A DNA stretch of 64,000 nt. It comes from Denitrovibrio acetiphilus DSM 12809 (GTDB lineage Bacteria; Chrysiogenota; Deferribacteres; Deferribacterales; Geovibrionaceae). A program made the translations under genes and the position numbers. The notes beneath the pieces are model-generated. The model had not been told where the DNA came from. It saw only the letters and a list, made by a program, of their open reading frames with translations, and made no database searches. Below are positions 1,817 to 49,308 of this stretch, one piece after another. The stretch covers positions 3,100,001 to 3,164,000 of the forward strand of contig NC_013943.1 in assembly GCF_000025725.1 (NCBI RefSeq). The letters are read 5' to 3'. The first letter of the stretch is position 1; every line of letters starts with the position of its first letter.

Positions 1817-3154
1817 GTGGCTAAAAAGAAAGCTAAATACGTCTGCCAGTCCTGCGGGTATGTCAGCCCGGGCTGGATAGGCAAGTGCCCTGAGTGCAAT
1901 AGCTGGAGTAGCTTTGTTGAAGAAATCCAGGTGGATGCGGCAACTACAGCGATAGGAAAACGTATAGCTAAGGCTAAACCTGTTTCGCTGAAAGATGTCA
2001 AAGGGCTAGAAACCGAGCGCACCCCCACTGGGATGCCGGAACTTGATCAGGTTCTGGGCGGCGGGCTGGTAAAAGGCTCTGTCCTTCTTGTCGGTGGTGA
2101 GCCGGGAATAGGGAAGTCTACCATCATGCTTCAGTGCGCCGGTATACTTTCAAGGGACAGGCTGAAAGTGCTGTATGTCTCCGGTGAGGAATCTGCTGCA
2201 CAGCTCCGTTTGCGTTCTGACAGACTTGGCGTTTCTGAAAATGAAATAGATATCCTTTCCACTAACAGTCTCGAAGATGTTCTTCAGGCGTGTGAAGAGG
2301 AGAAGCCGGATTATATAATACTTGACTCGATCCAGACGATAGCATCGGATGATCTGAACTCTGCTGCGGGGACTGTAGGGCAGGTGAAACATGTCACCTA
2401 TCGCCTTGTGGAACTTGCCAAAAGCAGAGGGATAACCGTTATGATAGTCGGTCAGGTCACAAAGGACGGCTACATCGCAGGTCCGAAAGTTCTGGAGCAC
2501 CTCGTGGATACAGTGCTGTATTTCGAAGGGGACTACAGCAGGGGCGTGCGGATACTCCGGTCCGTAAAGAACAGATTTGGTCCCACAAATGAGGTCGGGC
2601 TCTTTGAGATGACAGATAAAGGTCTTCTGGAGCTTTCGAGCTACAGCTTTGTGGACGATAGAGCTGATAACTCTGCCGGGCGGGTTTTTGTTCCTGTTAT
2701 GGAGGGGACAAGGGCTTTTCTTATAGAGGTGCAGGCACTTGTAGCACCGACATTTTATCAGTTTCCCAAGCGTAATTGTATGGGGTTTGACCTTAACAGG
2801 CTGAACATGCTCCTTGCTGTTTTAGAAAAGAAGGGTGGTGTGAATCTTGCCGGAAGCGATATCTACATTAATGTTGCGGGCGGGATGAAGATCACTGAGA
2901 CCAGCGCAGACCTCGCTATATGCGCAGCTATCGTATCGTCTTTCAGAGACAGACCGATAGACCCTCATTCAACATTTATCGGTGAAGTGGGGCTGACAGG
3001 TGTTATACGTCCTGTGTCTAATATGGGCAGCAGACTGAGCGAAAGTTACAAGATGGGTATCAGAAAATATTATCTCCCTGAGAAAGTGGAGTTTGACAAA
3101 ACAATAGAAATTGGTTTATCTATTAATGTATCCAAATTTCTGGATATGTTTTAG
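1817..3154 (+). CDS. radA: DNA repair protein RadA
   Basis: RecA-related ATPase that helps process recombination intermediates. The start is GTG at 1817, two bases after the ruvB stop. It has an N-terminal four-cysteine zinc finger (Cys10, 13, 24, 27), Walker A GEPGIGKST (about 94-102), the RadA-specific KNRFG motif in SVKNRFGPTNEVG, and a C-terminal Lon-protease-like domain. Length 445 is typical. It lies between ruvB and fabI in one compact run; its stop TAG is part of the AGGAGG ribosome binding site of fabI. Confidence 0.97.
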   Translation: MAKKKAKYVCQSCGYVSPGWIGKCPECNSWSSFVEEIQVDAATTAIGKRIAKAKPVSLKDVKGLETERTPTGMPELDQVLGGGLVKGSVLLVGGEPGIGKSTIMLQCAGILSRDRLKVLYVSGEESAAQLRLRSDRLGVSENEIDILSTNSLEDVLQACEEEKPDYIILDSIQTIASDDLNSAAGTVGQVKHVTYRLVELAKSRGITVMIVGQVTKDGYIAGPKVLEHLVDTVLYFEGDYSRGVRILRSVKNRFGPTNEVGLFEMTDKGLLELSSYSFVDDRADNSAGRVFVPVMEGTRAFLIEVQALVAPTFYQFPKRNCMGFDLNRLNMLLAVLEKKGGVNLAGSDIYINVAGGMKITETSADLAICAAIVSSFRDRPIDPHSTFIGEVGLTGVIRPVSNMGSRLSESYKMGIRKYYLPEKVEFDKTIEIGLSINVSKFLDMF

Positions 3155-3162
3155 GAGGATTT

Positions 3163-3930
3163 ATGGGACTTCTTGATGGAAAAAAGGCGCTGATCTTCGG
3201 CGTTGCGAACAACAAAAGCATTGCCTATGCCATTGCTAAAAATTTTATTGAGCAGGGTGCAGAGGTTGCTTTCAGCTATGCCGGCGAAAAGCTCAAAACA
3301 AGAGTGGAAAAGGTCTCTGAGGAACTTGGAGGCAAATTTCTTGTCCCATGCGATGTTACCAGTGACCATGAGATAGAAGCATGCTTTGAAACTGTTAAAA
3401 AGGAGTGGGGAACATTTGATATCCTCGTGCACTCTGTTGCATATGCTCCAAGTGACGCGCTGAAAGGCAGATATGTCGACACACAGAGGGCACACTTTGC
3501 AATGGCTCTGGACATAAGCGTATATTCTCTGGTAGCTGTGGCTAAAGCCGCAGAACCTATTTTGAATGACGGCGGCAGTGTGATCACAATGTCATACCTC
3601 GGTGCTGAAAGGGTCATAAGAAATTATAATGTTATGGGGGTTGCAAAAGCAGCTCTGGAATCTACTGCGAAATATCTCGCTTTAGATATGGGTGAGAGGA
3701 AGATAAGAGTTAATGCTATTTCCGCAGGTCCTATTAAGACACTTGCGGCGGCAGGCATATCTGACTTTAAAAAGATTTTTAACCATATTGCGGAAAACGC
3801 ACCACTGCGTGACAACTGCACTCAGGACGATGTCGGGAGGACTGCGGTTTATCTCGCATCTGAACTTTCAACAGCAGTGACAGGGGAAGTTATCCATGTT
3901 GATAACGGCTACTCTATAATGGGATTGTAA
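3163..3930 (+). CDS. fabI: Enoyl-[acyl-carrier-protein] reductase (NADH), FabI type
   Basis: Catalyses the last reduction in each fatty acid elongation cycle. The protein (255 residues) is a short-chain dehydrogenase-fold protein with the divergent FabI glycine pattern GVANNKSIAYAIA near the N-terminus and a catalytic YNVMGVAK (Tyr-x6-Lys, with an earlier Tyr in SYLGAERV). The end VDNGYSIMGL is typical of FabI. AGGAGG lies six bases before the ATG. A strong terminator follows, so this is the last gene of the ruvB-radA-fabI run. Confidence 0.96.
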   Translation: MGLLDGKKALIFGVANNKSIAYAIAKNFIEQGAEVAFSYAGEKLKTRVEKVSEELGGKFLVPCDVTSDHEIEACFETVKKEWGTFDILVHSVAYAPSDALKGRYVDTQRAHFAMALDISVYSLVAVAKAAEPILNDGGSVITMSYLGAERVIRNYNVMGVAKAALESTAKYLALDMGERKIRVNAISAGPIKTLAAAGISDFKKIFNHIAENAPLRDNCTQDDVGRTAVYLASELSTAVTGEVIHVDNGYSIMGL

Positions 3931-46788: not shown

Positions 46789-46818
46789 TTGCAGAAAAAT
46801 CTATGAGCGCAATATTAG
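46789..46818 (+). promoter_or_regulatory. Sigma-70-like promoter for the candidate small RNA
   Basis: TTGCAG (46789-46794), 18 bases, TATTAG (46813-46818). Predicted start at about 46825, which is the first base of a GC-rich stem. Confidence 0.45.
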
Positions 46819-46824
46819 ATATAA

Positions 46825-46973
46825 GGCTGCGGAAGAGAGAAGGAAGATTCTAAAGATTTCAGAGAACGAGAATTTGAGCCGCAGCAGGAGACGAGTCCAA
46901 TGGGTTTTGAAGAAGAATCGGAATTGTTTCAGTGAAAAGCCCTTCAGTAAAGTTACTGTGGGGCTTTTCCATT
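46825..46973 (+). ncRNA. Candidate small RNA of about 150 nt
   Basis: The transcript would begin with GGCTGCGG, whose GCTGCGG (46826-46832) pairs with CCGCAGC (46879-46885). Inside, ATTCT (46847-46851) pairs with AGAAT (46869-46873). It ends in a long terminator hairpin (46934-46969) followed by TTTT-rich sequence. Four GGA motifs occur along it, which would fit a CsrA-type binding RNA, but the number is small. It does not match any known RNA class that I recognise. A tiny frame with a ribosome binding site lies inside. Confidence 0.45.
46934..46972 (+). terminator. Long hairpin terminator (possibly bidirectional)
   Basis: GAAAAGCCC (46934-46942) pairs with GGGCTTTTC (46961-46969), and inside it CAGTAA and TTACTG form a second 6-bp helix with a two-base loop. 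The T run within the 3' arm makes it a plausible terminator on both strands. Confidence 0.65.
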
Positions 46974-46980
46974 TTATGCG

Positions 46981-47237
46981 GTCGAAGACAGAACACCACG
47001 CATTTCTGCGTGTATTAATAAGATAATAATAACTTTAGAGCTTATAAGTCATTGTGAGGAATGCAATGGCTAAGTAATCTCAGGATTAACTAACGAGTCC
47101 AGAAACTGCCACAGCCCTGCGGGCTTCGCAGTGACATATTTTGCATATGTTCTAGCTGTAACAACGAATTTGTAAATTCGTGTGTTAAGCATGTGCGAAG
47201 CAATAAAACCACGGGCTTACCAGTGGGAATCTATGTG
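46981..47237. repeat. Tandem hairpin-rich repeat, copy 1 (257 bp)
   Basis: First of two directly adjacent, nearly identical units. It contains several inverted repeats: CACGCA/TGCGTG (46997-47012), the GTCATTG...CAATGGC arm pair, CTGCG/CGCAG within GCCCTGCGGGCTTCGCAG, and ACGAATTT/AAATTCGT (47164-47181). Parts such as GTCATTGCGAG and CGAAGCAATCTC resemble palindromic repeats that I remember from many bacterial genomes. No protein frame runs through it. Confidence 0.9.
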
Positions 47238-47493
47238 GTCGAAGACAGAACACCACGCATTTCTGCGTGTATTAATGAGATAATAATAACTTTAGAGCTT
47301 ATAAGTCATTGCGAGAAATGTAATGACGAAGCAATCTCAGGATTAACTAACGAGTCCAGAGACTGCCACAGCCCTGCGGGCTTCGCAGTGACATATTTTG
47401 AATATGTTCTAGCTGTGACAACGAAGTTGTAACTTCGTACGCTAAGCATGTGCGAAGCAATAGAACCAAGGATTTCCCTGGGGAATCTATGAC
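47238..47493. repeat. Tandem hairpin-rich repeat, copy 2 (257 bp)
   Basis: Direct continuation of copy 1 with scattered differences. The same hairpins recur, and the stem ACGAAGTT/AACTTCGT (47421-47438) keeps perfect pairing although one pair differs from copy 1. The copy ends exactly at the stop codon of the histidine kinase on the other strand (47494-47496). Confidence 0.9.
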
Positions 47494-49308
47494 CTATTGC
47501 GGATGGGTGCAGAGAGTAAGCTTTATGTAAAAAATGACGCCGTCCCCGGTGTTTTCAAACCACATCTTCCCCCCCATATTTTCTATTATCTGTTTCGACA
47601 TATAAAGACCAATCCCAACCCCTTTACTTTCTGATTTCGTGCTGAAATATGGTTCAAAAATTCTCGGTGCGACATTTTCGGGTATCCCTCCTCCGTTGTC
47701 CCTGATAGATATGAGCGTTTCAGTGTCGTTGTGGTTGTTGATGTTTACCTCTATCAGCTTATCTTTTGTATTGTCTATTTCGTCCATAGCATCCATTGCG
47801 TTTTTAATAATGTTAAGTATTACATGTTTAAACTCGTTAGGGTATCCGTGAACACAATAGCTTGTGCAGCAGTCGAATGGATCCGTGTCTTTTTTTATGA
47901 GTCCATCAAGATCTTTCCCCATGCAGCCAAGGTGCAGTCTTATGCTGTGGTTTCTGAGCTGAGGAAACATCATTGTGGCTACATCATTTATTGTTTTGCA
48001 TACCTTAAAGCATTCAGAGCTCTTGTCAGGTTTGAAAAAGTTACTGAAGTCATTAATGGTGTCAGACATCTGCATAATGATTTCCATTGCTCCATGGGTG
48101 TCGTTGCGGAGGACATCTTCTGTGAGAGAGTTTGTTTCATATGCGTCTTCAATGTCCTGTATGATGAGCCCTACAGCGTTCAGAGGCTGTCTCCACTGGT
48201 GTGCAATAGCACCTATCATATCCCCCATGGATGCAAGCTTAGACTGCTGCATAAGGAGTCTTTCGTTTTCCAGCCGACGCGTTGTTTCTGCTGTAATTTC
48301 ATTTTCGAGGTCTTTGTTAGCGTGCTGGAGAGCTTCTTTAGCTTTTGTAAGTTCTTTGTTGAGTGCGAGAAGCTTTTTGTTATATTTAGATGTTAAAATG
48401 AATTTTCCTGCAATTACTGCTATTACGAGAAGGAAGCCGATGACTATTTTAATGATGAATCTATAATCGTGGCTTTTTTGATAATTTATTGATATCCACT
48501 TGTTCAGTATTCTGTGTCTTTCTTCTTTGCCGATGCTGCTCAGAGCTTTTTCCATTATGCCTAGAAGCAGAGGGTCATCTTTTATAACGCCTATCTTAAG
48601 TTCGAAGCCGAATTTTGCATCACCTGTAATTTTAAGGTTCAGAAGTCCCATCTGGCGGATATTATAAGACATTTCAAGCAATGATCCGGTAGTTGCAAAA
48701 GCCTTCCCTCTGCTGACCATCCTAAGTGCTTCCTTGATATTTGGTGCATATATACGGTTTATGTCCGGATGTTCGGAACGGATTATTTCATCCACCATAT
48801 ACCCTTCGACGATGACAAGTGTTTTTCCGCGCAGGTCACCCATGCCGTTTATAAATTTGTCCCTCTCTCTGGTCACAAAGACAGAAGGGGAGCTTATGTA
48901 TGACTTGGTAAAATTAAGGTACTTGTCCCTCTCGGGAGTTTTGTTTAGTATTGACAACAGGTCACACTTTCCGGCTTTTGCATTTGCAATAGTTTCCGAC
49001 CATGTTGATGTGTGTAAAATGTTGTATTTCAGTCCTGTCAGGTGGCTGATGATTTTATGGTAATCCGCAGCTATGCCTATATAGTCGCCGTTATCTTCAA
49101 ATTTTTCGTATGGCATCCAGTTAGGATCAGTACACAGAATCAATTCTTTTTTCTTTTTAATATATTCGATTTCTTCTGTGGTTAGCTGTACTTCACTGTT
49201 CGGCATGTCTATATGCAGATAAATGTCATGATCAGTTTCGTTTGAGTATGATGAAGAGTAAAAAACGAATACAACAACAAGAGTAAAGATTATTCTGCAA
49301 ATTATCAT
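47494..49308 (-). CDS. Periplasmic-binding-domain sensor histidine kinase
   Basis: A 604-residue kinase with an N-terminal signal/anchor, one extracytoplasmic SBP_bac_3 domain (about residues 45-270; LILCTDPNWMPYEKFEDNGDYIGIAADYHKIIS), a membrane helix (FIIKIVIGFLLVIAVIAGKFIL), a coiled coil, a His in IGAIAHQWRQPLN and an ATP-binding domain (NIIKNAMDAMDEI, DNGGGIP, GVGIGLYMSKQIIENMGG). Such domains bind amino acids or similar solutes. No response regulator is adjacent. It is divergent from a gene with a sigma-54 promoter, and its activator could be its partner. Confidence 0.9.
   Translation of the reverse strand: MIICRIIFTLVVVFVFYSSSYSNETDHDIYLHIDMPNSEVQLTTEEIEYIKKKKELILCTDPNWMPYEKFEDNGDYIGIAADYHKIISHLTGLKYNILHTSTWSETIANAKAGKCDLLSILNKTPERDKYLNFTKSYISSPSVFVTRERDKFINGMGDLRGKTLVIVEGYMVDEIIRSEHPDINRIYAPNIKEALRMVSRGKAFATTGSLLEMSYNIRQMGLLNLKITGDAKFGFELKIGVIKDDPLLLGIMEKALSSIGKEERHRILNKWISINYQKSHDYRFIIKIVIGFLLVIAVIAGKFILTSKYNKKLLALNKELTKAKEALQHANKDLENEITAETTRRLENERLLMQQSKLASMGDMIGAIAHQWRQPLNAVGLIIQDIEDAYETNSLTEDVLRNDTHGAMEIIMQMSDTINDFSNFFKPDKSSECFKVCKTINDVATMMFPQLRNHSIRLHLGCMGKDLDGLIKKDTDPFDCCTSYCVHGYPNEFKHVILNIIKNAMDAMDEIDNTKDKLIEVNINNHNDTETLISIRDNGGGIPENVAPRIFEPYFSTKSESKGVGIGLYMSKQIIENMGGKMWFENTGDGVIFYIKLTLCTHPQ

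Follow-up and report, generated by a model that had tools for sequence, protein, structure and literature searches.

A tandem repeat in the genome of Denitrovibrio acetiphilus DSM 12809 very probably consists of two adjoining non-autonomous IS200/IS605 elements of the PATE type, mobilised in trans by the TnpA protein encoded at G000:C1:1041761-1042317. The repeat lies in a 64,000-nucleotide stretch (contig NC_013943.1, positions 3,100,001 to 3,164,000), and we use the term window for the whole of this stretch. An earlier note, made from the letters of the window, had described the repeat and had taken it for a structure kept by selection.

The tandem pair and its dispersed copies

A repeat search of the window returned two adjoining copies with 252 nt in register at 91% and a period of 257, and by blastn copy 1 and copy 2 are 91.05% identical over 257; the two adjacent copies of the earlier note are thus borne out. 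Comparison of flanks gives the element borders listed in Table 1. The start given before (46981) is 3 nt off by this measure. Copy 2 does adjoin the histidine kinase gene, as had been remarked, ending 3 nt before its stop codon (CTA at 47494-47496, minus strand) rather than at it. Both copies fold better than all 200 of their dinucleotide shuffles (z -4.2 and -4.4), so their hairpins are not there by chance.

Table 1. Features of the tandem pair and its surroundings; positions are those of the window
Feature	Position	Strand	Remark
Host intrinsic terminator	46934..46969	+	Inverted repeat; 17-bp stem, 2-nt loop, then CATTTTAT; upstream MFE -22.2
TTTAT, left target/cleavage pentanucleotide	46973..46977	+	Outside the element; found at nearly all insertion sites
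Copy 1, non-autonomous IS200-type element	46978..47234	+	257 bp
Left subterminal hairpin (IPL), copy 1	46996..47013	+	CCACGCATTTCTGCGTGT; guide-like ACAGAACA immediately 5'; covaries in related IS elements
Passenger of copy 1	47048..47135	+	Inverted pair of REP-like repeat GTCAYTGCGA...GCARTCTC
Cited stem, copy 1	47164..47181	+	ACGAATTTGTAAATTCGT; both sides differ from family consensus
Right subterminal hairpin (IPR), copy 1	47209..47226	+	Covaries in related IS elements
TCTAT, right cleavage site of copy 1	47230..47234	+	Occupies the target-pentanucleotide position for copy 2
Copy 2 of the element	47235..47490	+	256 bp
IPL, copy 2	47253..47270	+	
Passenger of copy 2	47305..47392	+	REP-like inverted pair
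Cited stem, copy 2	47421..47438	+	ACGAAGTTGTAACTTCGT; family consensus state
IPR, copy 2	47466..47481	+	Partly decayed
TCTAT, right cleavage site of copy 2	47486..47490	+	
Histidine kinase gene	47494..49308	-	Neighbour outside the element; stop 3 nt away

The genome, one contig of 3,222,077 bp, was searched for further units, a check that the earlier note had proposed. There are 40-44 matches to the unit and ∼40 near-full-length copies, and pattern and end searches extend the set to ∼50 independent loci if shortened forms are included and each tandem pair is taken once. No full-length unit was found in 20 related genomes; one relative (G006) has a lone left end, behind a terminator. The same-genus genomes G001 and G002 carry neither element copies nor this TnpA. 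At the locus homologous to the window they have the terminator with its hairpin and lack the element, and the terminator is an insertion target older than the element.

Full left ends start with GCGGTCGAAGACAGAACACCACGC or a variant, right after TTTAT or a near variant. Intact right ends have a hairpin followed by GAATCTAT and close with TCTAT or a near variant. Most copies have both TTTAT ahead of the element and TCTAT at its end, and hairpins (IPL and IPR) lie near both ends in the copy alignment. Terminal inverted repeats are absent, neither end (GCGGTCGAAG, GGAATCTAT) being an inverted copy of the other, and the flanks of the ∼50 loci show no visible target duplication; on both counts we rejected a classical MITE. 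The sequences show that the copies share their ends, hairpins and fixed cut-site sequences, and inserted without duplicating the target.

The copy tree is star-like with terminal branches near 0.06, as expected if a single burst gave way to neutral decay. Since the copies resemble one another at 81-91%, the burst is old; the present TnpA may therefore not have made it. Some copies are shortened. Three 123-bp forms (G000:C1 2765225-2765360, 2149514-2149649 and 1781645-1781785) stand at different terminators with the same internal deletion, which fits deletion between two GAAGCAAT repeats; they may be either independent deletions or a shorter form that is itself mobile. Nine further copies (G000:C1 1486, 1480656, 1711383, 1758997, 2132455, 2136064, 2143355, 2185850 and 2252741) lack the first 27 bp. 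Each starts at the very base that follows the TTTAT inside the left hairpin, is preceded by a host site of TTTAT/TCTAT type, and can be explained either by deletion or slippage between two TTTATGCG repeats or by cutting at that internal TTTAT instead of the usual site.

How the tandem pair formed admits two answers. Copies 1 and 2 are sisters in the copy tree (support 99/98), and the members of a second tandem pair, at 2625177-2625658, also group together, weakly. Such grouping speaks for unequal exchange or replication slippage of one copy, an origin that we regard as possible, if somewhat doubtful, for the pair; the alternative is insertion at the right end of an existing copy. Against exchange or slippage, the junctions fall exactly at the element borders (TCTAT|G), as insertion predicts, and slippage would need repeats at the borders, which have only TAT in common. 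The position of the junction, exactly at a right end, fits right-end targeting.

Probable partner transposase and covariation

The sole Y1 transposase gene of the genome is the one named at the outset. It is flanked by the first 48 bp and the last 58 bp of the unit, the complete IS being 557 bp; a second, truncated relict of this IS lies at 405962. TnpA scores 110.5 bits with the IS200 model NF033573, above its cut-off of 55, and 21.2 bits with the RAYT model, far below the cut-off of 80. The search for a RAYT-type mobiliser advised in the earlier note thus produced an IS200-like transposase and no RAYT, and a suggestion made before, of a palindromic DNA element moved by a REP/IS200-like transposase, came close. 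By sequence TnpA can be aligned with TnpA proteins of known structure, from IS608 and ISDra2-type elements, including the motif DHLHM (DHxH) and the C-terminal tyrosine of NYVELQ. This TnpA probably mobilises the copies.

Among 84,980 genomes scanned, those of Emcibacter and other Alphaproteobacteria, Zixibacteria, Burkholderiales, Bacteroidetes and Alteromonas yielded relatives of TnpA at 65-81% identity, and the ends of these related IS elements are nearly identical to those in D. acetiphilus. Fourteen Vibrio plasmids, which probably belong to the shrimp-disease type, carry relatives of 71% identity. Viral contigs gave no TnpA. Y1 proteins of 31% identity or weaker occur in other families only, and with neither copies nor TnpA in same-genus genomes we rejected transposition within the genus.

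The two stems on which the earlier note had built its argument have exactly the letters claimed for them, and the difference between a T-A pair in one and a G-C pair in the other is present. The note concluded from this compensatory change that a folded RNA or palindrome is under selection, in other words that the copies are a structured RNA or palindromic regulatory DNA, retained for what the fold does in place. Besides the double change, the strong folding of both copies speaks for such a function, as do some invariant interior columns. Covariation over all copies, which the note had named as the way to check its reading, gave the result that it had named as contrary. Among 32 copies, with shuffle and slide controls, stem cells pair in 88.3% of cases observed and 88.3% shuffled, pairs changed on both sides number 5 with 5.3 expected from shuffling, and 171 of 500 shuffles reach the covariation score. 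At the cited pair (columns 196-203), 22 copies have GC, 1 has GU and 1, copy 1 itself, has UA; in the other 8 the pair is broken. Both-side changes are entirely absent from the long-range stem, and the RNAalifold covariation term is about zero. The star tree with its similar terminal branches, the absence of copies at the homologous place in the same-genus genomes and the lack of any Rfam match up to E = 1 also weigh against a structured RNA, and the last of these led us to reject a known RNA family. We consider selection for the fold very improbable. The T-A/G-C change is not evidence of a selected RNA; the copies decay as neutral DNA does, and two repeat copies can come to show an apparent compensatory pair with no RNA-level selection at work.

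Real covariation is restricted to the end hairpins, and is found between IS lineages. Among the related IS elements the left hairpin varies as CCACGG-C/G/T-TTTA-G/C/A-CCGTGG, and the right hairpin similarly. The covariation score is 0.242 for the left hairpin (0.076 shuffled) and 0.269 for the right (0.085 shuffled), values reached by 0 of 500 shuffles in each case, although the sequences are few and related, so that these shuffle counts are not probabilities. The signal vanishes when partner columns are slid. This is as expected for DNA hairpins recognised by a transposase.

Insertion behind terminators and replication

The insertion points are preceded by terminator-like hairpins with T-runs. 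At 34 of the 49 readable insertion sites in D. acetiphilus (69%) the upstream sequence folds at or below -10 kcal/mol. The controls came from the window together with sampled stretches of ∼390 kb, in which a simple ORF rule defined the genes; such a fold was present at 54 of 403 intergenic TTTAT (13%; p 3e-16) and at 13 of 85 TTTAT that follow a same-strand stop codon by no more than 150 nt (15%; p 4e-10). Fifteen D. acetiphilus sites have no stable upstream hairpin by the energy rule, that of the tnpA copy among them (-3.2). Insertions of close relatives in Alteromonas have 12 distinct readable targets, all 12 of them classical terminators whose T-run ends in TTTAT at the cut (TTTAC in one), while 10 of 139 control TTTAT sites in Alteromonas reach -13 kcal/mol. 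One more copy, on an A. macleodii plasmid, likewise lies behind a hairpin. In Alteromonas lipolytica, 14 left ends fit a 36-nt pattern without mismatch, so its insertions probably happened recently and have undergone little filtering by selection.

The association with terminators might instead be one of survivorship, the element inserting 3' of any TTTAT and selection removing the copies in genes and promoters. D. acetiphilus has a genome that is 93% coding (PMC3035293) and its old copies have had time for filtering; part of the enrichment there could reflect selection against harmful sites and not targeting. Survivorship is nevertheless unlikely to account for the association, since even among gene-downstream TTTAT hairpins are far rarer than at insertion sites (15% against 69%) and the A. 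lipolytica burst looks recent, yet its readable targets are all terminators.

Orientation is linked to replication. The top strand of the element lies on the predicted lagging-strand template at 45 of 50 loci, where hairpin-preceded intergenic TTTAT would lead one to expect 64% (55 of 86; p 3e-5), with replichore borders taken from sampled GC skew that is near zero in several samples. The skew puts the terminus near 1.4 Mb and the origin near 3.05 Mb, and of the five discordant loci, two are close to the terminus border.

These observations can be assembled into a mechanism, in which we infer guide pairing, terminator mimicry and tandem formation at the right end. TnpA would bind both subterminal hairpins where the lagging-strand template is single-stranded at the replication fork. 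AGA triplets just 5' of the hairpins would pair with TTTAT at the left and TCTAT at the right: the triplet stands before both hairpins in D. acetiphilus and in most relatives, and is complementary to the TCT of TCTAT and, with one G-T, to the TTT of TTTAT. The element would be excised as a circle and joined 3' of another TTTAT, without target duplication. Its preferred target would be the TTTAT with which an intrinsic terminator's T-run closes. In the element's own right end a hairpin is followed by 8 nt and TCTAT, so a terminator, with its hairpin, 8-9 nt and TTTAT, may pass as a surrogate right end. The right end of an existing copy might also serve as a target, giving tandem copies. The cut falls after the T-run, so that the terminator would be left intact and the insertion should be harmless. 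The spacing from hairpin to cut at insertion sites is about that of control terminators, and is for this reason no test of mimicry.

More generally, we put at even odds the proposal that this IS200 TnpA subgroup, found across phyla, has gained structure-guided targeting, a terminator (hairpin, 8-9 nt, TTTAT) acting as stand-in right end so that the IS and its derivatives insert behind terminators as a safe harbour. Short targets like TTTAT occur thousands of times per genome, and this group is mostly found behind terminators. If true, group IIC introns would have a counterpart among DNA transposons; confirmation would mean that single-stranded DNA transposons can follow a safe-site strategy, and would offer a testable example of a target recognised by the shape of a hairpin together with guide pairing. 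We found no report of terminator targeting by IS200/IS605 elements in the open-access literature, outside which most subscription journals lie. Relative to the literature found, this targeting by a whole TnpA subgroup is new, as is the REP-like passenger described below, with priority not established for either.

G001 and G002 conserve the intergenic stretch at 46800-46969 of the window (...GCAGGAGACGAGTCCAATGGGTT...), before the target terminator, and two other genomes (G005 and G007) have a related form upstream of comM. The stretch gave no Rfam match and could be a small RNA gene. In G002 (L132, reverse complement, ∼3150-3640) comM is separated from a related terminator region by a long series of short, degenerate tandem units (GATTCAGACTCAGATCCGGTTTCAGTTTCCGAAGA).

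Known systems and the REP-like passenger

The copies are best read as non-autonomous IS200/IS605 elements of the PATE type, and their features fit the definition published for these palindrome-associated transposable elements, known from Haloquadratum (PMC3119063). Our element and the Haloquadratum PATEs both have subterminal palindromes of IS605 type, no terminal inverted repeats and no target duplication (PMC3119063), both are too short for a transposase, and both show internal deletions mediated by repeats. Unlike the PATEs of Haloquadratum, the present element lives in a bacterium, forms one main sequence family, shares its ends with a partner TnpA gene of its genome, has terminators as targets and carries a REP-like passenger. 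With IS608 and ISDra2 it shares TnpA homology and subterminal hairpins (PMC5934647, PMC6006769, PMC7290912). Those elements have guide tetranucleotides 5' of their hairpins, insert 3' of a short fixed sequence and show a lagging-strand bias (PMC5934647, PMC6006769, PMC7290912), and the latter two traits recur here. Their targets are TTAC or TTGAT where ours is TTTAT, and their hairpins are irregular where ours are perfect; also unlike them, the present element has no tnpB seen between its ends and has its targets behind terminator hairpins. Group IIC introns insert directly behind the stem-loops of Rho-independent terminators, using short pairing and the hairpin (PMC7923331), and our element also lands behind terminators. 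They are, however, RNA retroelements with a reverse transcriptase, whereas this is a DNA element that would be moved by a Y1 transposase; a group IIC intron was rejected, the 257 bp having no reverse transcriptase frame and no Rfam match. REPINs and RAYTs resemble the present system in combining Y1-type enzymes with palindromic non-autonomous DNA (PMC3116915, PMC8266576), and differ in that the transposase is of another subfamily and the mobile ends here are not REP sequences.

REP-like sequence is nonetheless on board, as an inverted pair (GTCAYTGCGA...GCARTCTC) between the IS-derived ends. The pair, and the independent dispersal of this repeat in related genomes (G005, G006 and G009), give some reason to think of REP-like inverted pairs moved by a domesticated RAYT. 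That origin is very improbable. TnpA scores far below the RAYT cut-off and above that for IS200, the mobile ends are the IS ends and not the REP-like pair, and all 21 exact matches to the repeat in D. acetiphilus lie inside element copies. With the only Y1 protein in the genome at 21.2 bits against the 80 required, a RAYT transposase was rejected. The IS200-derived element appears instead, from its sequence, to have swapped tnpA for a copy of another repeat.

Our literature search found no paper on bacterial repeats with this interior motif. In G005, G006, G007 and G009 the repeat takes the form GTCAYTGCGAN(stem-loop)GGCARTCTC, with varied inner stems that look paired (e.g. L032:1501-1534 and L037:1501-1535). 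Its Y and R positions change together, ATTGC occurring with GCAAT and ACTGC with GCAGT, and the dispersed repeat looks like a separate, covarying family of palindromic repeats.
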